27,342 bases of DNA. Source: a virus. The position numbers were made by a program, and so were the translations under genes. The stretch is from positions 1 to 27,342 of IMG/VR virus record IMGVR_UViG_3300006810_000299. The stretch is one strand, 5' to 3'. Positions 1-13,917 of the stretch are shown here, one piece after another; the first letter of the stretch is position 1; every line of letters begins with the position of its first letter. Under the pieces are notes generated by a model. It worked only from the letters and a program-made list of their open reading frames with translations. It was not told where the DNA came from and did no database searches.

Positions 1-525
1 GAGGAGTTCGCATCCCACGATCTACACCCGAACCTTGACCCGAATCTACGTCCTGTGTACGGCTATGTCGCTTTCAACAATCCTGTCATGCAAGGAGCCG
101 CCGGATATGGGGATGTGCGATTCGAGTTGAAACCGGAAACGAAAGAACGTGCTTCGATGACTGATGGTGATTCACTCGGTGCCTACGCCACTCCTATCCC
201 GATGTCGGGTGATCCGATCACGCGGGAACAAGCCGTAGGAGGGTCTTTAGGGTGGAGCAATCTGTCGCATCAAGGGCAAAGAACACCTGTTGGCGAAGAA
301 ACAATAATTCAGCGAGTTGATTCTGAGCAGGGAGCCGGACGCTACATTGAGGCGCAGGTAAAGGGCGGCGTAAAGATCGACGATGTCGCTCGTATTCACG
401 TCGACGGGCCACACTGGGACGCGCCGGAGGCTTTCGGACGGTCAGATGACTATTACCCGTTCGATGTTGAGGCGTTAGCCGAGGCCGCTGAAGCACGCGG
501 CATCGAGATCGTCTACCACGGATAA
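1..525 (+). CDS. ADP-ribosyltransferase/DUF3626-like protein, 3' part only
   Basis: The frame is open from the first base, so the gene starts upstream; the GTG at 55 is internal and has no ribosome binding site. The visible 174 residues contain PVYGYVAF, then RFELKPETKERASMTDGDSL, then RYIEAQVKGGVKIDD near the C-terminus. This order resembles the DUF3626 / ADP-ribosyltransferase-like toxin domain that, as I recall it, occurs at the C-terminus of some phage head-associated (MuF-type) proteins; the YIEAQV-type segment would carry the catalytic glutamate region. The neighbours downstream are also effector-like, which fits a head-packaged or head-linked enzyme. The family call rests on remembered motif patterns and not on an alignment. 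The coding status is firm; the function is moderate to low confidence. Confidence 0.6.
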   Translation, partial: EEFASHDLHPNLDPNLRPVYGYVAFNNPVMQGAAGYGDVRFELKPETKERASMTDGDSLGAYATPIPMSGDPITREQAVGGSLGWSNLSHQGQRTPVGEETIIQRVDSEQGAGRYIEAQVKGGVKIDDVARIHVDGPHWDAPEAFGRSDDYYPFDVEALAEAAEARGIEIVYHG

Positions 526-741: not shown

Positions 742-3700
742 ATGAGCGTCGTCGAGAAGCATCAGCGCGGTAAACACGATCAGTCCGCTCACGGGGCGTG
801 GGCTAAAAGCGGCGCGATGCGTGCAGGATGGAGCCAACGCTCCAACGACGAGATTCTCGCGGAGTTTCAGGCGCGGTTCCGCAGCATGTACCCGAACGAT
901 CAAGAACACGCGGACAACATGGCTGAGGAGTTCGCTTCGTGGACAGCGAAGTACGACGGCCCGAATAACACGTCGATAACGGTCGAACTTCACAGGTTGG
1001 GTGAGCAGCCTGATCCCGAAACGATGGACACGGTCATGTGGACTGTGGATCGGTTGCAGAAACAGAATCCTGTTCAGGATCTGGAAGTCATGTTCTCGTT
1101 TAGGCCGTTCCGTGACGAGGCACAGTTCGTGCCCGCAGAGGCCGAGGGATTCGTTATCCGGGGTGAAAAGAAAATCAACCTGCAACCTGATTTGGCGCGA
1201 GACATTGGCATGTCGGCGGTGCGCGACGATGGGCATTTCATGCCTGCAGCGGCGAACGTGTCGAAGGTTGAGTATTACTTGACGCACGAGTACGGGCACG
1301 TTCGCGATACCCGAAACAGAGGTCAGGTGAATGATGACCGTTACCGTCTGGCCGACCTTGAAACAAGCGGCTACGGCGCAACTAACGAATACGAGAAATA
1401 CGCTGAGGCATACACCGAGTGGTCACTGACAAACGGTGAAACAACAAACATCACCGCTCAAACATATGCCGATAAGTATTTTTGGGCAGAGAACTTGGAG
1501 AAGGCTATGGATGATGATGACGAGATGGAGCGGATCATCATCGTTGACACGTTCGACGCTGCCAACCCACCATCGGCGAGGCCGTACCCGAAAACACCCG
1601 AGGCTGCGACGATCAAAGTCGCCCCCGGGTTGAAGCCGATCCTGAAGCATCAGCGCGGCAAGCATGATCAAAAGTCACACGGTCGACGTGGCTCGTCGGA
1701 GCGTTCACCGTTCTATGACGAGTTAGAGGAGGAGCAGCGGGAGGCACTTGAATACTTGATGGGTGACCGTCCCTTCCCACCGGGTTACAGCCCCGAGGGT
1801 GTGCCGCCGCCGACGATCACGATAAGCGAATCACTCGGCAACAAAATCCGCTCAGCCCGCAAGAAGATTCGTGAATGGCGTGCCGATCGGGAGCGCCGCG
1901 CTTTGGCTCGGATGACACCCGATGAGTTGTCTGCGTTAGGTGCCGCTAACAGGGCTCGTGAAGCCCTACGGCAAGGGTTCACTCCTGCGATGGCTAAATC
2001 AGTTGATCCGGCGTTGCGGGTGTTGTATCGCGTGTTCGGTGACGTGGTGGAGCCGGAGGTGTGGTTCGCGCTCGTTCAGCATCAGAGCCCGTTAGAGGAG
2101 ATTGACGGGCCGCTCGGGCGGCTGCTGGATGACATGTTGGGTGCCGTGTTGCCGGGGCCTGTGATGATCAAGTTGGCTCCGGGGTTGCGGCCTGTATTGA
2201 AGCATCAGTCCGGTAAACATGATCAGAAGTCGCATGGGACGTGGGCTCGTGGTCGTGCTGGTGAGTTCAGTGAGTGGGGGGATCGTGCTGCGAGGATTCG
2301 GGCTGCTCGGGATGTTGGGCCGGATTTGAGTCGTGTTGCTCGGGTGTTCCAGAGGTCTAAGGATTTTGAGTTGGATGAAGTTATCGAGGAGACGATTCTT
2401 GATAATTATGGGGAGGTAATTTCGGAGGTAGTGGAGGAACGTAAAGAACAGATTCGCTCAATGAGTCAAGAAGAAATAATGAGCGCTTATGGGAGTCCTG
2501 TAGAAAACTTTGTTTCCGCGAGCGTCGCAAACGGTAAATCACGTTCGGAGGCTATTGAGAAGTTCCGTGAAATGCAAATAGCGGATGTGCGACGACAGGT
2601 AGAGGAGCAATGGGTCATTGACTACGACTTAGAGACCCGCTATTCGATAGAAAGGGATCTTGTAGAACGCATCACCCCGGGTCTTGAAGAAATGATGAAC
2701 ATTCGGCATCCGGTGACGATAAATGGTATGCCCGACGAAATTGTTACCGAGGTTACGAATGTCGAAGTTCACGGTCTAGGGGGGCCTGATCCCAAAATAC
2801 TAATCGCAGGCAGCATAAGAAACTCCCAAGGAGAATGGATCGGGGAGATGTTCGAGCGTGAAATCCAATTGTCTGAAACATCACCATCCGGCAAGCCACA
2901 GTTGGAAGCAGAAAACAAACTGCTACGAATCAACGATGAGCGCTATCAACGTCAAGGGTTCGCTACCGCGTTCAACGAACGCACCTACGACATGTACATC
3001 GCCAACGACATTGACACGGTTTTCGTGTACACGGCATGGGAGGGTGGAGCGGTGTGGGCGAAGCGCGGATTCGACTGGAACCCGAACAGGGGGGCCGACA
3101 ACATAAATGTGGCAGCAGATGCCTTGAATTATGTTGCAGATTCCCCTGATGCTTCATCGAAAACTCGTGCGCGAGCCCAACAAATGCTGGATGATATGTC
3201 TGTATCTAGTGGTGTTGACGATGTTGACTTTCCAACACCTATGGAAGTCGTCATGCTGGGATACACGCCGAACGCTTCAACATGGGTTGGGCAGGAAGCG
3301 ATGATGGGTCAGAATTGGTACGGTAAAAAGTTTCTGACACCTGACAATCTGAGTGAAGTGAAGCGACGTAAGGACGAGTTGAAGGTCATTGCCGAGCAAG
3401 ATAGGCAAGCGGCTGGGCAGAAGAAACTGTTCACGTTTACTGAGCAGCCTGCAGCCCGAGGATCAGTTGGCGAGCCTCAGCCTTTGCCCAATATGACGAT
3501 CGAAGAATTGTTGGAGCCCACATTCGGCAGCGTTCCGCGAGTTCGCACACCTGAAGGTGCCGCGAAGTACGGGAAACCGATCGGGGCGCCGATCCGTGCA
3601 GTCGAGAAGAAAATGTCTCGTTGGGACAAACTGCAGGCACAGGCCGAGTTCTACGAAAAATGGCTCGAAGAAACTAACCGGGAGTTGGATGATGATGATC

Positions 3701-3762
3701 CCGAGGTGGAGCGTCAGTTCTATGCCGCTGCCGATGAAGCGATGCCGTGGCTCGTTGACTAA
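742..3762 (+). CDS. Polyvalent multidomain protein: zincin metallopeptidase plus GNAT-like domain
   Basis: A 1006-aa protein whose ATG abuts the previous stop. Three copies of the His-rich motif KHQxGKHDQxxHG (residues 6-18, 302-314, 487-499) divide it into blocks. Block 1 (about 20-290) holds HEYGH at 182-186 and a later NEYEKYAEAY (215-224), a zinc-metallopeptidase HExxH arrangement with E218 or E222 as the likely third ligand. Block 2 (315-486) is charged and unrecognised. Block 3 (500-1006) contains RQGFATAF (737-744) followed by GGAVWAKRGFDW, the pattern of a GNAT acyltransferase fold, then a C-terminal tail with RTPEGAAKYGKPIGAPI. Two longer repeats, IK(V/L)APGL(K/R)P, lead into motifs 2 and 3. 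Such mixtures of enzyme domains match the 'polyvalent protein' concept of phage proteins delivered with the DNA. Delivery is inferred. The region around 2400-2520 has clearly lower GC than its flanks, suggesting domain acquisition. Confidence 0.85.
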   Translation: MSVVEKHQRGKHDQSAHGAWAKSGAMRAGWSQRSNDEILAEFQARFRSMYPNDQEHADNMAEEFASWTAKYDGPNNTSITVELHRLGEQPDPETMDTVMWTVDRLQKQNPVQDLEVMFSFRPFRDEAQFVPAEAEGFVIRGEKKINLQPDLARDIGMSAVRDDGHFMPAAANVSKVEYYLTHEYGHVRDTRNRGQVNDDRYRLADLETSGYGATNEYEKYAEAYTEWSLTNGETTNITAQTYADKYFWAENLEKAMDDDDEMERIIIVDTFDAANPPSARPYPKTPEAATIKVAPGLKPILKHQRGKHDQKSHGRRGSSERSPFYDELEEEQREALEYLMGDRPFPPGYSPEGVPPPTITISESLGNKIRSARKKIREWRADRERRALARMTPDELSALGAANRAREALRQGFTPAMAKSVDPALRVLYRVFGDVVEPEVWFALVQHQSPLEEIDGPLGRLLDDMLGAVLPGPVMIKLAPGLRPVLKHQSGKHDQKSHGTWARGRAGEFSEWGDRAARIRAARDVGPDLSRVARVFQRSKDFELDEVIEETILDNYGEVISEVVEERKEQIRSMSQEEIMSAYGSPVENFVSASVANGKSRSEAIEKFREMQIADVRRQVEEQWVIDYDLETRYSIERDLVERITPGLEEMMNIRHPVTINGMPDEIVTEVTNVEVHGLGGPDPKILIAGSIRNSQGEWIGEMFEREIQLSETSPSGKPQLEAENKLLRINDERYQRQGFATAFNERTYDMYIANDIDTVFVYTAWEGGAVWAKRGFDWNPNRGADNINVAADALNYVADSPDASSKTRARAQQMLDDMSVSSGVDDVDFPTPMEVVMLGYTPNASTWVGQEAMMGQNWYGKKFLTPDNLSEVKRRKDELKVIAEQDRQAAGQKKLFTFTEQPAARGSVGEPQPLPNMTIEELLEPTFGSVPRVRTPEGAAKYGKPIGAPIRAVEKKMSRWDKLQAQAEFYEKWLEETNRELDDDDPEVERQFYAAADEAMPWLVD
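757..795 (+). repeat. His-rich inter-domain motif, copy 1 (KHQRGKHDQSAHG)
   Basis: This copy lies at the extreme N-terminus of the 1006-aa protein (residues 6-18), directly before the metallopeptidase block, and is followed by AWAKSG. Being at the N-terminus shows that the motif is a header of a block and not only a linker between two. Confidence 0.9.
1645..1683 (+). repeat. His-rich inter-domain motif, copy 2 (KHQRGKHDQKSHG)
   Basis: Residues 302-314 of the 1006-aa protein. It is preceded by IKVAPGLKPIL and followed by RRG. The leading APGL segment is shared with copy 3, so the repeated unit here is about 25 residues and probably arose by duplication. Confidence 0.9.
2200..2238 (+). repeat. 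His-rich inter-domain motif, copy 3 (KHQSGKHDQKSHG)
   Basis: Residues 487-499 of the 1006-aa protein, preceded by IKLAPGLRPVL and followed by TWARG. It marks the start of the GNAT-containing block. The DNA falls to about 42-43% GC some 160 bases further on. Confidence 0.9.
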
Positions 3763-3823
3763 CGATGTTCCCCGTAAGTGGGGGTTGGCGGTAACCTAAA
3801 GGGACGATACCCGGACTCTGAGG

Positions 3824-6800
3824 ATGCCCGTGACTGATACCGCAACCCGCCTCACGGGTCTCGCAGATGAAGACCTCATCGCCCTGCATGAGCGGCTGGA
3901 CCGTCAAGGCGCTGTCGATTCTGCCGTGATCGAGGCGCATCATCTTGCGGCGACCGAGTTGCTGAAGCGTGGCCTAACCCACGGTCACACCGATGACGAG
4001 TGGGTTGAGGCCGTCATTCTCGTCGAGAAGGCTCTCGTGAGTTCGGCTGATGAGATCGAAGCGCCGGATGGGTTTGAGAAAGCGTGGGGTGAGTCTCTCG
4101 CGCACGGCGGCAGCGTGTCCGTTTTGTTGACTACCGACGGATATGTGTTGAAGGCCGATCCGACGGTGTCGGATGTTCATCAGGACACGATCATGGGTGG
4201 TGGCCGGAAGAAGCCCCGCCGCATCATGCCGCCTGCCGACATGGAGAAGACGATCCGTGAGGAGGGCGGCAAGTTCGTCGTCTATTCGGAGGACTTGAAG
4301 CGGAAGTTCGGGACGTATGACACTCGGACTGAGGCTGAGGAGCGGCTACGTCAGATCGAGCGGTTCAGTAAGGCCGACGATTATGCGGTGCCGCGTGCTG
4401 TCCAGTCGGCGGCTAAGCAAGCGTTGAAGTGGATCGCAGACGGTAAGGCTGGTGGCGGTTTCACGAGTGTGGGCCGTAATCGTGCCCGCCAGTTGGCTGA
4501 TGGCGGCACCGTGTCTCGTGCGACGCTGGTGAAGATGCGGGCCTATTTTGCCCGTCATATCGTCGACAAGGATGCGAAGGGTTGGGGGGATAAGAGCAAG
4601 CCGACGCCGGGGATGGTCGCGTGGTATGCGTGGGGTGGTGACCCGGGTCGGGCGTGGGCTAACCGGGTGTTGGGGGATGTTGAGAAGGCTTATGACCCTG
4701 AGGAAGCCCTGACGGACAAAGAGAAGGCCCTGTATGCGGCATATGAGGCTGTAGCGGGTCAGTACGGGGAGTTTACGCCTGCCGAGGCTCATTACATGGG
4801 CGGTGACGATAACCCGTGGAACGCGCAGGGCATGAATTGCGCGAATTGTGTGTTCTTCGAGGGCGGTGGCGGCTGCGAGATCCTGACGGAGCAGGTGGAG
4901 CCTGAGGGGTTGTGTAAGTTGTGGGTGATTCCGCAGGGGTTGATGCGCCACGACGCGCCCGCTGAGAAGGCCGTAGAGGCCCTAGCGAAGTTCACGCTTC
5001 CGGGTGGTGCCACCTATGAGTTCAGTGTCCCCGTGTCGGCTGTGGGGCCGCTGACAGCCGTTCCTGACGTTTCTGTCGCTAAGCATCAGCAGGGTAAGCA
5101 TGATCAGGCCGCTCATGGGCGACGTGGCGGCGTGTCTGTGTCGCCGGAGGTTGCTCAGTCGATCATCGGTCGAGTCCGCGAGCAGGGTGGCCTGAGTGTC
5201 AACATGATCGACGGGTCGGAGCCGCCGGACGGCTACATGGTGGCCCGCACTGAGGGTGTGAAGCCGTCGATCGTCAGTGCTGACGAGTTCTATGGCGCTG
5301 ACACGGGGCCTGCCGCATTGAGTTCATTCTTGAAGGACAACAAGGCCAGTTTAACGGGGGGTGACTACCTTGGGGTTTGGCATGACACGGATAGCGGTAA
5401 TGTATTCCTTGATGTATCGCAAAACGTCAAGGACCGTGCCACTGCTGAGCGGCTCGGTAGTGAACGCAATCAGATCAGTATTTGGGACGTCGTTGAAGGC
5501 AAGGAGATAGCGACAGGTGGCACAGGAGAAATCGCAAAAGCCGATTCAGGCGGTGAAGTTGCCGGATCTGTCGACGATGACGGACGAGGAGATCGACGAG
5601 TTCGCTCAGAGTCTGTGGGAGCAGATCAGTCAACAGTCGTAAAGCACGGCGAACCGGGTCGAGACAAGAACTATCACCGTAAGCATCCGCATGGCCGTGG
5701 TGGCCCCGGCGGTAAGGGTGAGACCGAGGGCAAGGTTTACCGGACCCGTGACCATAAGCGGGCTATTTCTATGCTCGCTCGTGGCGAGAAAGTCATCCTC
5801 GAATCTGATAAAGATGTCAACACGTTCCTCGAAAAACTGCACGACTACGCCAGTGATGCTCGCGAGAAGGGCGAGGATGCGGGCAACCTAGATTTGTGTC
5901 GCGTGTCGGTGCCGGGAACGAACCTGTTCTGCACGGAGTCCCTCGGTGTTCCGCGTATTGAGATGCCGCAGTTGGCGGGTAAACCCGTGAAGGGTTCAGC
6001 GGCGGACAAGATGCCGAAGGACAAGAACGGCGAAGTCAATGTCGGTGAGTTGTTCCGTGAGAAGTTGGAGGCTAAGGGTGTCGATGTTCGTGACACTGAG
6101 GTGCCTGCCGCTTCATTGAAGGCGTCTCAGAATGAATTGAAGGGCGCGAATGTTGCGTTCATGATGAGCCCGAATGGGCAGAAGGTCGTGAATCTGGAAG
6201 ACACCCGCATCTTTGTTTCCTCTGACGGGTATGTGATCGACGGGCATCACCGTTGGGCTGCGAACGTGGGCCTTGATTCCAGCGACGGCAAGTTGGGTGA
6301 CAAGAAGATGAAGGTCACCATGATTGACATGCCGATCAGTGAGGTTTTGGCTGAGGCGAATACGTTCGCTGACGATATTGGTATCGCACCGAAGGCCGCT
6401 AAGTCTGTCGATGGGCAGATGGAGAAGCACAAGGCGGGCAAGGGGCATGATCAGAAAAGCCACGGCGCGTGGGCTAAGGGGGGTGGCGAGCAGTACGGCG
6501 GCTATGAGTTGATCGAACCGGATAACCCGCCTGCTGAGTCGAAGCGTGGCGCTGATTCGATCGCTGCTGCGAAGGCTATGCGGGCGAAGGTCGCTGAGGT
6601 GGAACCGCAGATCACTCGTGACATGATCGACGCCGCGAATAAGCACAAAGCCACGATGGTTGGGTTGAATCATCGGATGAAGTCGGAGAAGTCTCTGGCT
6701 CGCAAGATCGACGATGAGAAGGATCTTGACTTTGGTGGGGATGCTGAGCGTGCGGCAGCGAACATGAACGATGTGGCCCGCTACACGATGGAGTACGACG

Positions 6801-7180
6801 GCGGCGACTACGTCAGTGGCGCTGAGGGCGTGATCAGTGACCTAGAGGGTCAGGGTTATGCGCTGGAAGTGAAGAATTATTGGGCTGATAATGATCCCTA
6901 TCAGGGGATCAACATCGCGGCAGTGCATCCGAATGGGACGCGGTTTGAGTTGCAGTTCCATACGCCTGAGTCGTCGGCGGTGAAGGGTAAGATTCATGAG
7001 CGGTATCAGAAGTACCGTGAGTCGGATGATCCTCGGACACGGTACAAGGAGTACGACGGTATGCGGCGCACGGCTGAGGATGTTCCGGTGCCGGAGCCTC
7101 GTGAGGCGTTGATGGCGATCGGTGAGTTGAAAACGCAGCCGTTCACCCCCCGTCCTGACGCACCCCCGGTTGAGATTTAG
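3824..7180 (+). CDS. Polyvalent multidomain protein: Cys4, ParB-like and RelA/SpoT-like domains
   Basis: An 1118-aa ORF starting at ATG 3824 with GAGG just upstream. Visible blocks in order: an N-terminal helical part; GGKFVVYSEDLKRKFGTYDT (148-167), a short module known from phage head-protease regions; a block with GGGFTSVGRNRARQLADGG and YAWGGD (about 185-290); a four-cysteine module (C339, C342, C351, C364) resembling a HiPIP-like Fe-S or zinc site; a His-rich motif (420-432) and a block ending near 570; a variant motif (607-624) before a ParB-like segment DGYVIDGHHRWAA (801-813); a last motif (868-881) before a RelA/SpoT-like nucleotidyltransferase pattern, RMKSEKSLARK (951-961), KNYW..DPYQGIN and RFELQFHT (1040-1047). 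Such domains could modify host nucleotides or proteins early in infection; that role is inferred. Residues about 570-606 look out of frame, so this may be two ancestral genes joined by an indel or a programmed shift. Confidence 0.8.
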   Translation: MPVTDTATRLTGLADEDLIALHERLDRQGAVDSAVIEAHHLAATELLKRGLTHGHTDDEWVEAVILVEKALVSSADEIEAPDGFEKAWGESLAHGGSVSVLLTTDGYVLKADPTVSDVHQDTIMGGGRKKPRRIMPPADMEKTIREEGGKFVVYSEDLKRKFGTYDTRTEAEERLRQIERFSKADDYAVPRAVQSAAKQALKWIADGKAGGGFTSVGRNRARQLADGGTVSRATLVKMRAYFARHIVDKDAKGWGDKSKPTPGMVAWYAWGGDPGRAWANRVLGDVEKAYDPEEALTDKEKALYAAYEAVAGQYGEFTPAEAHYMGGDDNPWNAQGMNCANCVFFEGGGGCEILTEQVEPEGLCKLWVIPQGLMRHDAPAEKAVEALAKFTLPGGATYEFSVPVSAVGPLTAVPDVSVAKHQQGKHDQAAHGRRGGVSVSPEVAQSIIGRVREQGGLSVNMIDGSEPPDGYMVARTEGVKPSIVSADEFYGADTGPAALSSFLKDNKASLTGGDYLGVWHDTDSGNVFLDVSQNVKDRATAERLGSERNQISIWDVVEGKEIATGGTGEIAKADSGGEVAGSVDDDGRGDRRVRSESVGADQSTVVKHGEPGRDKNYHRKHPHGRGGPGGKGETEGKVYRTRDHKRAISMLARGEKVILESDKDVNTFLEKLHDYASDAREKGEDAGNLDLCRVSVPGTNLFCTESLGVPRIEMPQLAGKPVKGSAADKMPKDKNGEVNVGELFREKLEAKGVDVRDTEVPAASLKASQNELKGANVAFMMSPNGQKVVNLEDTRIFVSSDGYVIDGHHRWAANVGLDSSDGKLGDKKMKVTMIDMPISEVLAEANTFADDIGIAPKAAKSVDGQMEKHKAGKGHDQKSHGAWAKGGGEQYGGYELIEPDNPPAESKRGADSIAAAKAMRAKVAEVEPQITRDMIDAANKHKATMVGLNHRMKSEKSLARKIDDEKDLDFGGDAERAAANMNDVARYTMEYDGGDYVSGAEGVISDLEGQGYALEVKNYWADNDPYQGINIAAVHPNGTRFELQFHTPESSAVKGKIHERYQKYRESDDPRTRYKEYDGMRRTAEDVPVPEPREALMAIGELKTQPFTPRPDAPPVEI
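5081..5119 (+). repeat. His-rich inter-domain motif, copy 4 (KHQQGKHDQAAHG)
   Basis: Residues 420-432 of the 1118-aa protein, followed by RRGG. It separates the four-cysteine module from a block containing PPDGYMVARTEG and NVFLDVSQNVKDRA, which I recall as a recurring domain in actinophage head-region proteins but cannot name with certainty. Confidence 0.9.
5511..5642 (+). other. Better-coding +1 frame inside the 1118-aa ORF
   Basis: In the frame whose codons start at 5511, this stretch reads ...PIQAVKLPDLSTMTDEEIDEF... and ends AQSLWEQISQQS at a TAA (5640-5642). Its codons end almost always in G or C and encode a plausible amphipathic helix. The annotated frame here gives a low-complexity Gly/Asp/Arg/Ser string using CGA, GGA, TCA, ACA and GTA. 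Removing one A from the AAAA run at 5536-5539 joins the upstream domain to this ending. A downstream gene could then start at GTG 5615 in the original frame. The cause may be a real indel fusing two genes, a programmed +1 shift or a sequencing error. Confidence 0.6.
5642..5695 (+). repeat. Divergent His-rich motif (KHGEPGRDKNYHRKHPHG)
   Basis: Residues 607-624 of the 1118-aa protein. It keeps the opening KH, the internal charged/His content and the closing HG followed by RGG, but is five residues longer than the standard motif. It heads the ParB-like block and coincides with the return to the good coding frame. Confidence 0.6.
6425..6466 (+). repeat. His-rich inter-domain motif, copy 5 (KHKAGKGHDQKSHG)
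   Basis: Residues 868-881 of the 1118-aa protein, with one extra glycine relative to the other copies, followed by AWAKGG. It separates the ParB-like block from the RelA/SpoT-like block. Confidence 0.85.
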
Positions 7181-7218: not shown

Positions 7219-8085
7219 ATGATGCCACAAAGGTATTTCATCAAAACAGACAAGGCTGACGCTCCCCTAACCCTGTTCCGGTTCTCCATCGACGATTCCA
7301 CTGAGCAAATCTTCGAGCAGGAATGGCAGAACGGCTGGGAAGACACCGCACGGCTCGGCGGCTATCTCATCAGCGGTGATCCAAGGATCGTCGAGATCCC
7401 CCGGGAGAAAGCCGAAGAATTATTCCCTGACTCCGTCACGGCTGAAAACGCCACACTCGTCAGCAAGCAGGTCGCCGAGCGGATGTTCACCCTCGGCCCC
7501 ATGTACATCCCTAACGTCAAAGACGCGCACGCCGAATGGACAGACCCTGAGGAGTTGCAGAAAGCCGTATGGGAGTACGTCAAGAAAGGCGACCGCCGTA
7601 TCCGCCTCCAACACGACAAGAGCGTCGTTGCTGGTGAATGGCTAGAGATCATGGCGTGGCCGTATGAGGTCGAAGCCCCCATCATCATGAAAGACGCCTC
7701 ACAGGGAAGCATGAAGTTCCCCGCTAACACGGTATTCCTTGGCGTGAAGTGGGAACCTTGGGCTTGGCAGATGATCAAGGAAGGCAAACTGCGTGGGTAC
7801 TCGATTGGTGGGCGTGCCGAGCGGCTATTGGCGGATCTTCCTGAGGAGTACGTTGGGAAGGCTCAGGCTCCGTTCGAGGACGCTATTCGAGTCGAGGCCG
7901 ATGATGTCGCACCTCCACCAATCGTGGCAGAAGCAGATTTGGAGGATAGAATCGCAGTGGCGGTGGCTGAGGCGATGAAGTCCATCAACCCCGTCGTGAA
8001 TGTCGTCATGCCGGAGGAAAAACCCAAAGTACGTCGAGTTGAGCGGGATGAAAATGGCAACATCCTGCGCGTAATTGAGGAGTAG
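7219..8085 (+). CDS. Head maturation protease, XkdF-like
   Basis: A 288-aa protein. The central part, MYIPNVKDAHAEWTDPEEL, then RIRLQHDKS (His132), then LRGYSIGGRAE (Ser195), follows the layout of the XkdF-type phage serine protease family: a P-N-x-x-D-A-H element, a catalytic His in a QHD context, and a Ser in Y-S-I-G-G. Such proteases cleave scaffold and capsid precursors during prohead maturation. The C-terminal third is acidic with PPP and a positively charged end, typical of self-assembling prohead proteases. ATGs at 7219 and 7222 are both possible, because the AGGAG at 7211-7215 fits either; 7222 has the more usual spacing. It lies upstream of the scaffold and capsid genes as expected, although an unrelated cassette intervenes. 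The protease may also process the motif-bearing giants upstream; that is speculation. Confidence 0.8.
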   Translation: MMPQRYFIKTDKADAPLTLFRFSIDDSTEQIFEQEWQNGWEDTARLGGYLISGDPRIVEIPREKAEELFPDSVTAENATLVSKQVAERMFTLGPMYIPNVKDAHAEWTDPEELQKAVWEYVKKGDRRIRLQHDKSVVAGEWLEIMAWPYEVEAPIIMKDASQGSMKFPANTVFLGVKWEPWAWQMIKEGKLRGYSIGGRAERLLADLPEEYVGKAQAPFEDAIRVEADDVAPPPIVAEADLEDRIAVAVAEAMKSINPVVNVVMPEEKPKVRRVERDENGNILRVIEE

Positions 8086-8087
8086 TA

Positions 8088-8444
8088 ATGGCAGGTTTGG
8101 TTGATGATGGCAAGCATCTCATGCTTGATGGGTTCGGCACTGGGGTGACCTTCGTCAGCCTGCACACTGCTGACCCCGGAGCCAGCGCTTCGGCTGAGGT
8201 TACTGGCGGCGCTTACACCCGTGAGGCTGCCTCGTGGGCTGCGGCAGCATCAGGCAGCGTATCCACGAGCGCATCTATCGTTTTCGATGTCCCCGGCTCC
8301 ACGACAATCACTCACCTCGGGTATTGGTCGGCGAGCACCTCTGGCACTTTCTATGGATCACGCGCTCTGGACACATCACAGACCTACGCGACCGCAGGCA
8401 CTTACACGATTAGTTCAGGGAATATCACTGAAACCATAACCTGA
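8088..8444 (+). CDS. Small beta-rich head or tail structural protein
   Basis: A 118-aa protein starting 3 bases after the protease stop. It contains VSLHTADPG near residue 24, a Ser/Ala/Thr-rich middle, and regularly alternating hydrophobic residues typical of a beta-sandwich. Proteins of this 'LHTADPG' type are common in actinobacteriophage structural regions and are usually annotated as minor tail or head-decorating proteins; the exact location on the virion is not known to me. The stop codon overlaps the next start (TGATG), so the two are translationally coupled and probably act together, for example as a small anchoring domain with the Gly-rich protein that follows. Confidence 0.65.
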   Translation: MAGLVDDGKHLMLDGFGTGVTFVSLHTADPGASASAEVTGGAYTREAASWAAAASGSVSTSASIVFDVPGSTTITHLGYWSASTSGTFYGSRALDTSQTYATAGTYTISSGNITETIT

Positions 8445-9415
8445 TGGCTACGGGGTTATTCACCCTTGATAGCGCGACTCTCGGTGTCCTTGACGAAAAT
8501 GTTTTGGGCGGTGAGGGCACCGGCTTCATCGTCGGAAGTTCATCTTCTAGCGGCAGCGTTCTAGGTGCTGTCGGCTATGCAGGATCTGCGTCAGGAAGCG
8601 TTGGGTCCGACGGATCTGTCACGGGAATTGTCGGCTACGTTGGGTCTACTGCAGGATCACAGGGATCGGCTGGGGATTCCACAGGTGTAGCGGGCTTCGC
8701 AGGCTCTGTTGCGGGTTCTACAACATCTACGGGGGCGAATACTGGGTCACCGGGCCTATCGGGTGCGGCTGATGGTGAATCCACATCTACGGGTAATTGT
8801 TCCGGGCAGCCGGGACTTTCCGGTTCGAGTTTGGGTGTTGTCGCGAGTTCAGGGACCGCGAGTGGTAATCCTGCATTGAGTGGCTTGATAAGTGGCTCTA
8901 ATGATGCAGCGGGCAGTGTCACTGGTGGCGAGGGCAACATTGGCACGGTCACAGGATCGGTGGCGAGTAGTGGCGATTCGGCTGGCTCGCCGGGGCTGTT
9001 TGGTGTCGTCGGTGGTATCACAAGTGATACCGGCTCGGTGTCGGGTGTTGAGGGGAACACGGGTGGAGCGACAGGCTCGCAGAGTTCGATTGGCGCTGTC
9101 ACGGGCTCTAAGGGTGCTGCAGGTTCCGTCTCGGGTGTCAGTGTTTCGTCGGGTTCGATCTTCACGACGTCAGATAAGTCTGGCTCCGTTGATGGGGTCA
9201 GTGTGTCGACGGGTTCGGTCACTGGGAGCGGTCCTGCTCCTACCCCTTCGCCAGTTATCGGTGGCGGCTCTATGCCGATCATCGTGGCTGTTCCGCAGGT
9301 GTCCCCTTTCGGGTTCGTGTGGGCGCAGTCCGACAGTGGCGGCTCAGTCGGTGGATCGAAGCGGGTTCGTGAGGATGAAGACGTCGAGTTGCTGACACTG
9401 CTCGGTGTCCTATGA
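8444..9415 (+). CDS. Gly/Ser-rich 20-residue-repeat fibre-like protein
   Basis: A 323-aa protein overlapping the previous stop by one base. Residues 1-37 form an N-terminal head (MATGLFTLDSATLGVLDEN...). Residues 38-257 are eleven exact 20-residue units with glycines at fixed positions (4, 7, 10, 14 and 20 of each unit in most copies). Residues 258-323 form a Pro-rich linker, a hydrophobic MPIIVAVPQVSPFGFVW segment and an acidic tail. The glycine spacing is not Gly-X-Y collagen; a stacked polyglycine-type or beta-solenoid fibre is more likely. The same unit recurs at the end of the distal tail protein at 25193-26602, implying an adhesive or decorating role. No signal peptide is seen. The function is inferred from composition only. 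Confidence 0.75.
   Translation: MATGLFTLDSATLGVLDENVLGGEGTGFIVGSSSSSGSVLGAVGYAGSASGSVGSDGSVTGIVGYVGSTAGSQGSAGDSTGVAGFAGSVAGSTTSTGANTGSPGLSGAADGESTSTGNCSGQPGLSGSSLGVVASSGTASGNPALSGLISGSNDAAGSVTGGEGNIGTVTGSVASSGDSAGSPGLFGVVGGITSDTGSVSGVEGNTGGATGSQSSIGAVTGSKGAAGSVSGVSVSSGSIFTTSDKSGSVDGVSVSTGSVTGSGPAPTPSPVIGGGSMPIIVAVPQVSPFGFVWAQSDSGGSVGGSKRVREDEDVELLTLLGVL
8555..9214 (+). repeat. Eleven tandem 60-bp / 20-aa repeats
   Basis: Each unit follows the protein pattern SVTGxxGxxGSxxGSxxSxG. The period is exactly 20 codons with no indels over eleven units. Copies 6 and 11 have lost some of the fixed glycines, while copies 1-3 share a GYxGS or GFAGS segment. The DNA of the copies has diverged, so this is an old, selected array and not a recent expansion. 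Confidence 0.85.
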
Positions 9416-12936: not shown

Positions 12937-13917
12937 ATGCCACAGCCAACAATCAGTGACGTCCATGTTGACGCCATTCTGACGAACATCTCCGTCGCCT
13001 ACATGCAAAAGGCGGAGAACATGATCGCAGATAAGGTGTTCCCGGTCGTCCCCGTTGATAAGAAGTCGAACAAGTATTTCACCTATGACAAGGCGGATTG
13101 GTTCCGTGACGAGGCTCAGCGCCGCGCACCGGGCACCGAGTCTGCTGGTGGTGGATACAACCTGTCGACTGACACCTACGCGGCTGACGTGTGGGCGTTC
13201 CACAAGGACGTCGACGATCAGACCGTTGCGAACGCTGACACTCCGCTCAACCCGCTGCGTGAGGCCGCTGAGTTCGTTACCTCTCGCCTGCTGCTTCGTC
13301 GTGAGGTTCAGTTCATCACTGACTTCATGACTTCCGGCGTGTGGAACAGCGAAGTGACTGGTGTTGCTGCGAGCCCCGTTTCGGGTACGTCTTTCTATCA
13401 GTGGAGCGACTACAGCAACTCTGATCCGATCGAGGACATCGAAGCGGCGAAGGAAGACATTCTTTCGACCACGGGTTACGAGGGCAACACTCTCGTTCTC
13501 GGGTATCAGACGTTCCGCCAGTTGAAGAACCACCCCGACATCGTTGATCGCTACAAGTACACCACTTCTAGCGTCATCACTGAGGAGATGATGGCTCGCC
13601 TGTTCGGCGTCGATCGCATCCTCGTCGCGAAGTCGGTTCGTAATTCGGCTGCGGAAGGCTTGACCGCCTCCTACGGGTTCAACTTCGGTAAGGCCGCGTG
13701 CCTGCTGCACGTTGCACCCAACCCGGGTCTGATGACTCCGTCCGCTGGCTACATCTTCGCGTGGACTGGCGTGTCGGGTGGGCTCGGTTCCACCATCGGA
13801 ACTTCTCAGTTCCGCATGGAAAGCCTGAAGGCTGCCCGCGTTGAGGCTGAGGTCGCGTTCGACAACAAGGTTGTCGCCAACGATCTCGGTTACTTCTTCG
13901 CAAGCGCCGTCGCCTAG
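12937..13917 (+). CDS. Major capsid protein
   Basis: A 326-aa protein, with AAGGAGA upstream and an ATG at 12937. It opens DVHVDAILTNISVAYMQ and has AENMIADKVFPVVPVDKKSN, an N-terminal pattern of phage major capsid proteins of the HK97 fold family (GpE-like group). Further features are FTYDKADWFRDEAQRRAPG, VDDQTVANADTPLNPLREAA, a long spine helix region (LLLRREVQFITDFM) and GYQTFRQLKNHPDIVDRYKY. The C-terminal part has the beta-rich FRMESLKAARVEAEVAFDNK. Size, position between decoration and head fiber genes, and even C/G-ending codons all fit an abundant structural protein. It shows no sign of truncation. Confidence 0.88.
   Translation: MPQPTISDVHVDAILTNISVAYMQKAENMIADKVFPVVPVDKKSNKYFTYDKADWFRDEAQRRAPGTESAGGGYNLSTDTYAADVWAFHKDVDDQTVANADTPLNPLREAAEFVTSRLLLRREVQFITDFMTSGVWNSEVTGVAASPVSGTSFYQWSDYSNSDPIEDIEAAKEDILSTTGYEGNTLVLGYQTFRQLKNHPDIVDRYKYTTSSVITEEMMARLFGVDRILVAKSVRNSAAEGLTASYGFNFGKAACLLHVAPNPGLMTPSAGYIFAWTGVSGGLGSTIGTSQFRMESLKAARVEAEVAFDNKVVANDLGYFFASAVA

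Follow-up and report, generated by a model that had tools for sequence, protein, structure and literature searches.

A repeated histidine-rich header ahead of exchangeable modules in viral head-region proteins: a possible address tag on capsid cargo

Why do two giant, adjacent viral proteins carry the same short histidine-rich motif several times over, each time just ahead of a different domain? The question is raised by a virus record of 27,342 bases (IMG/VR record IMGVR_UViG_3300006810_000299; "the window" denotes this whole stretch), in which two open reading frames (ORFs) on the + strand, encoding 1006 amino acids (742-3762) and 1118 amino acids (3824-7180), contain copies of a motif of the form KHxxGxHDQxxHG, here called the KHDQ header. 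The explanation that we favour, and to which we assign a probability of about one half, is that the header is a portable address tag on packaged cargo and also a seam at which the cargo genes recombine.

The five clear copies that a preliminary description had reported for these proteins were recovered at 757-795 (KHQRGKHDQSAHG), 1645-1683 (KHQRGKHDQKSHG, a KHxxGxHDQxxHG match), 2200-2238 (KHQSGKHDQKSHG), 5081-5119 (KHQQGKHDQAAHG, likewise a match) and 6425-6466 (KHKAGKGHDQKSHG, one residue longer than the other copies), all on the + strand, and a six-frame scan of the window gave no other match that is a real copy. The first of them starts at residue 6 of its ORF and thus lies, as had been stated, at the very N-terminus. 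In ORF 742-3762, header 1 is followed by a zincin-type metallopeptidase module (796-1644), header 2 by a module of unknown function (1684-2199, family of 6) and header 3 by a GNAT-like module (2239-3759, family of 56). ORF 3824-7180 begins with a long N-terminal part of the phrog_2859 type, after which come header 4 and a module named DGYMV (5120-5641, family of 59), a header of a different type (5642-5704, KHGEPGRDKNYHRKHPHGRGG) and a ParB-like module (5705-6424), and finally header 5 with a RelA/SpoT-like module of the small alarmone synthetase type (6467-7177); all these features are on the + strand. The labels given earlier to these modules fared differently. The metallopeptidase contains HEYGH..E and 7 of its 21 relatives match the ATLF zincin family, and the RelA/SpoT-like family profile matches PDB 8vx3 'SaSAS' with an E value of 1.5e-30 (2.2e-15 for the window module alone). 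The ParB-like module shows a DGHHRW signature with weak Pfam support and gave no useful match in a PDB sequence search, and support for the GNAT-like label is also weak. The block 1645-2199 and the DGYMV module remain without a label, and for the latter neither a PDB fold search nor a PDB sequence search gave a useful match.

Structures predicted by AlphaFold2 (AF2) separate header from module. In two models, the predicted local distance difference test score (pLDDT) was <50 over most of the leader and header and >90 over most of the DGYMV module and of the zincin module, including the zincin core. Because AF2 gives low pLDDT to the header and high pLDDT to the modules, the header is probably a linear motif lying outside the folds; these predictions do not model metal.

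Occurrence of the header and the modules behind it

In total, 775 copies of the motif were collected from 511 non-redundant ORFs in about 198 stretches, nearly all of them uncultured viral contigs, which are not independent and many of which are fragments. In the motif pattern, H, H, D/N and H are invariant and the first two histidines are 3 to 6 residues apart. When viral contigs were searched with codon-degenerate patterns, the GK form of the motif was present in 93 stretches, the GQ form in at least 120 and the GR form in 24; a reversed-pattern control gave 1 match as compared with 93, ruling out a chance origin. Among 11.3 million cellular contigs from 84,980 species, only 2 matches were obtained, one of them inside a frame of 47 codons, which rules out that the motif is one of cellular proteins and disposes of the concern, voiced in the preliminary description, that it might occur mostly in unrelated host proteins. 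The sole credible cellular match, a short ORF of Ktedonobacter racemifer (L099) with the motif at about residue 21, is possibly a prophage remnant.

No KHDQ copy was found in 50,697 deposited phages by short-query BLAST with a 77-amino-acid composite query. This null result is meaningful because the same query, run locally at the same database size, recovers 189/209 loci. The phrog_2859 profile contains the header, and the motif is thus present, unannotated, in some catalogued viral proteins. A description of the header was not found in the paper on polyvalent proteins nor in paper searches with the motif letters, which surfaced one irrelevant article.

Modules following headers have a median length of 224 amino acids and fall into about 170 families, an approximate figure obtained by single linkage. 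Recognised kinds comprise ADP-ribosyltransferases (the largest family), DUF3626, SprT-like and ATLF/M90 zincins, Zeta toxin, GNAT, ParB, DRAT, the topoisomerase I core, 2'-5' RNA ligase-like, MuF and RelA/SpoT-like modules, and the majority of the families are without a known match. Up to six headers per ORF occur in other contigs, and the same modules are seen both fused and as separate proteins. Where a long N-terminal part precedes the header, it is mainly of the phrog_2859 type or MuF (28 MuF-type parts were noted). In an alignment of 113 dissimilar modules, in which the header residues are fixed by the search rule, the header is the only part left in common.

Does the header belong to the module that follows it? 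Module profiles built without the motif were run against all ORFs and, with truncated cases set aside, the motif was present ahead of 286/305 first modules, 226/255 internal modules and 103/130 modules following a long N-terminal part. A contig search with the DGYMV module, equally blind to the motif, yielded 80 loci, of which 69 have a KHDQ header, 5 a near variant and 4 a header of the NPxHDxxGRF type, with none seen in 2. A RelA alignment used as contig query produced no usable stretch. Several of the exceptions carry other headers: one contig (L101) has nine copies of YS[EP]DQERDDHGR[FW] ahead of the same module families, another (L119) has YSxDQPRDxxGRF, and in a third (L187) GHPFRGNQW occurs in four ORFs and is apparently a further header type. 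Headers of a second type (QxRDxxGR[FW], NPxHDxxGRF) were observed in the slot of the KHDQ header in L101, L119, L162, L410, L418, L423, L435, L216 and L444. When composite queries for header types II and IV were used against the deposited phages, only weak matches were returned. The sixth copy in the window, which had been regarded as a mere variant, is best taken as a header type of its own (type III): L041 and L082 share its pattern KHGxPxRxxxYxxxHP, and L192/L194 have KHGDPSRANYASQHPNSRGG, a looser version, ahead of a ParB-family module each time. The idea that it is a decayed KHDQ copy was rejected on account of this recurrence.

Placement of the header and recombination at it

The first header starts at a median of residue 30 in the 453 ORFs evaluated, with a sharp peak at residues 10-30, and lies within 40 residues of the N-terminus in 55% of ORFs; start codons in these statistics were guessed by rule. 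The part following the last header is shorter than 80 residues in just 9% of ORFs. This N-terminal peak of the first copy, combined with the repetition between modules, agrees with the earlier statement that the motif serves as a header rather than as a linker only.

The genomic setting is similarly constrained. In four genomes examined as a whole, headers lie between MuF and the XkdF head protease and on one strand: 19/19 in G001, 7/7 in G016, 9/10 in G018 and 13/14 in G023, the two copies outside this interval both being in TUDOR-domain genes. In G001, a record of 61.8 kb, the 19 copies are in consecutive co-directional ORFs running from MuF to XkdF. XkdF is present in 29/50 header records as compared with 2/40 other viral records (Fisher 8e-8; about 20 of the 40 control records are prophages of isolates), and an S78 protease is found in 9 of the 21 header records without XkdF, leaving 12/50 with neither, many of which are fragments. 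The header is absent from the XkdF ORFs of the window, G001, G016, G018 and G023 and from the major head protein ORF of the window. The residue after HG is Trp (or Phe) in 21/29 XkdF records but in only 1/9 S78 records (Fisher 0.002). Also, headers ahead of unrelated modules in the same genome resemble each other more (0.596) than headers ahead of modules of the same family in different genomes (0.513; 111 genomes, Wilcoxon 2e-11). The association of Trp with XkdF, the within-genome likeness, the motif-blind counts and the use of other headers suggest that the header is tied to the head machinery of the phage more than to the module, although gene conversion could also homogenise headers.

Modules are exchanged at the header DNA by recombination. 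Of the homology breakpoints, each counted once over all loci, 51% of the starts and 67% of the ends fall within -90 to +60 bases of the motif as compared with 15% of random points, the starts clustering at the motif start and the ends just beyond the motif end. The window and G016 share a long block of DNA from position 1561 onward, 84 bases ahead of header 2, and differ in the preceding module. The difference between L084 and G016 amounts to one cassette: G016 agrees with copy 1 of L084 as far as the end of the motif and with copy 2 thereafter, and the junction therefore lies in GCNTGGGCGAARGG. These breakpoint statistics and this exact junction bear out the proposal of the preliminary description that similarity between the copies allows recombination.

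In the window itself, an XkdF-type head protease (7219-8085, +; PF14550, E 6.3e-13) follows just downstream of the two giant ORFs, as expected from the head-region setting assumed earlier, and the major head protein (phrog_1005) is encoded at 12937-13917 (+). The origin from an actinophage suggested at the same time was not supported as stated. The window edge cuts a DUF3626-like module, of which the C-terminal part remains at 1-525 (+); in L049, 98.6% identical to the window over 2.8 kb, the counterpart of this cut ORF has one header. Positions 8444-9415 encode a low-complexity Gly/Ser/Thr repeat protein for which no family match was found.

A separate observation concerns the TUDOR-domain genes. 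In L005, L035, L036, L039, L042, L045, L051, L055, L079, L091, L126, L137 and L188, a run of A (CTAAAAAAAGCC or CTAAAAAAAAAC) ends the TUDOR-domain gene, and a KHDQ header and an acidic tail continue in the -1 frame, an arrangement that looks like a programmed -1 frameshift. Where looked at (L042, L055, L188), this gene is just downstream of XkdF. A similar number of other contigs have an in-frame tail, and in L198, L203, L077 and L211 the TUDOR domain is followed, also in frame, by a shorter form of the header (KHGSHNQKTHAG and similar sequences).

What the header may do

If the header is an address tag, the two giant window proteins would be cargo built into the procapsid and delivered to the host along with the DNA. 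Each cargo module would bring its own disordered header, made up of a short leader, then KHxxGxHDQxxHG, then a small linker rich in Gly/Trp, and this header would be a tag for docking to a head component that recognises it, such as the MuF/portal complex, the XkdF protease, or a scaffold or inner shell. Homologous recombination at the header DNA would insert, delete or swap whole modules, and address and fold would stay intact because every cassette begins with nearly the same header. Two observations lead us to prefer this reading: neither the XkdF ORFs nor the major head protein contain the motif, and in other phages the slot is taken by a different header. The peak at residues 10-30 is moreover a position like that of known packaging signals: the P1 DarB packaging signal requires >9 and <30 N-terminal residues, a stretch that suffices for packaging of a reporter, and in T4 the capsid targeting sequence is an N-terminal signal on head-interior proteins (PMC9024508).

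Several points weigh against an address tag. That headed proteins are packaged and injected, and that the header is recognised, is something we infer; internal copies are kept nearly as well as first copies, when one tag per polypeptide should suffice; and headers also follow MuF domains, which are already sited at the portal. The 12/50 header records with neither XkdF nor S78 mean that a reader of the tag would not be XkdF alone. Binding of a metal or another ligand would also fit the strict pattern of three histidines, and gene conversion alone could give the likeness of headers within a genome.

The internal copies and the position behind MuF are what might be expected if the header were a processing site, at or near which XkdF or a relative cuts, so that polyproteins become single modules in the head, modules are released from MuF, and separate proteins are shortened by a leader of about 20 residues. 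The occurrence of modules both fused and separate, the enrichment of XkdF in header records and the predicted disorder of the header are consistent with such cleavage, and the head protease of SPN3US strips leaders of 20-24 residues (PMC10052503). However, a general cleavage consensus would be expected in XkdF and in the major head protein, where the motif is absent, its eight fixed residues including three histidines go far beyond known AxE-type sites (PMC10052503), and some carriers are without a recognised S78-type protease. Processing in place of addressing is for these reasons a minority view, which we hold to be somewhat improbable; a combined model, in which the header is both address and cutting site, is compatible with all data.

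Two further explanations account for less than either addressing or processing. The header might be nothing but a tolerated flexible linker, spread as the stretch of DNA shared where modules recombine, and this would fit the clustering of breakpoints as well as the predicted disorder. It would leave aside that the amino acids are conserved across contigs of 42 to 59% G+C while codon use is free, that single-module proteins are headed near the N-terminus, that a different header is maintained at this place in other phages, and that a -1 frameshift appears to add a header to the TUDOR protein; we consider it unlikely. Less probable still is a hinge in which the histidines and the aspartate of the header bind metal or another ligand and so order or cluster cargo in the head. 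The invariant H, H, D/N, H pattern speaks for it, but the variable spacing of the first two histidines, the lack of order in the header in the AF2 models and the presence in the same slot of header types without this set of histidines argue against it.

Were the header an address tag, it would be a handle by which head-carried cargo can be marked straight from DNA, and module families numbering well over a hundred, the majority of unknown function, would become candidate injected phage effectors. It would account for the free exchange of effectors among phages and could serve as a transferable tag with which selected proteins are loaded into phage heads. A wider and more tentative proposal, which we think may well not hold, is that KHDQ, NPxHDxxGRF / QxRDxxGRW, GHPFRGNQW and KHGxPxR form an interchangeable family of headers that constitutes, in tailed phages, a general address code for head-packaged cargo, with lineage-specific dialects each read by its own head machinery, so that any effector module acquiring the local header by recombination could be delivered.

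Comparison with known systems

One close likeness is to the polyvalent proteins of phages, which are multidomain, strongly mosaic, encoded near virion genes, contain RelA/SpoT, metallopeptidase, GNAT and 2H domains and are thought to be packaged and injected (Iyer et al. 2017, PMC5512222). Headed proteins resemble them, as described there, in domain content and in the virion-gene setting: the window ORFs combine two or more distinct effector-type domains per polypeptide (zincin and GNAT-like; ParB-like and RelA/SpoT-like) and lie between MuF and XkdF/the major head protein. In contrast, a shared short header was not found for polyvalent proteins in the searched part of PMC5512222, whereas the headed modules, of the most diverse kinds, share one header and are exchanged at it.

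With the signals of P1 DarB and of T4, the header has in common an N-terminal location, a length of at most a few tens of residues and, if headed proteins are cargo, an association with proteins of the head interior (PMC9024508). Unlike those signals, it stands ahead of every module, reaches 19 copies in one 62-kb genome and is also found inside fusions. To our knowledge, and without an alignment having been made, its sequence differs from theirs. Fusions of MuF to effectors (RelA/SpoT, PBECR, 2H) offer another parallel, as MuF is among the proteins followed by header and module, but the majority of headed modules are without a MuF fusion. The phrog_2859 profile, of unknown function, matches header 3 directly, its positions 269-292 corresponding to residues 484-507 of ORF 742-3762, and also covers the N-terminal, ParB-like and RelA-like parts of the window protein; neither the header nor its spread is described there.

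Among cultured or named phages, DSL-LC01, Jera and Shrooms gave no KHDQ motif, and headers of the RDxxGRF type are present in DSL-LC01, whose giant head-region protein of about 3290 amino acids (L216, 3764-13633), encoded between portal and capsid protease, carries one header of the RDxxGR[KF/W] type. Taken together, the headed proteins of DSL-LC01 and Racecar lie between the portal and either the capsid protease or the major capsid gene. In the Arthrobacter phage Racecar, gp78 and gp80 carry an RDxxGRW header (LQLRDKNGRWIEMGG), not KHDQ, at residues 18 and 33 and lie between the portal and the capsid protease; gp78 (L444, 6288-14417), of 2710 amino acids with the stop, has one header of the RDxxGR[KF/W] type. 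Racecar, which is cultured and has a related type of header, would thus be a laboratory system for the wider proposal of a general address code.

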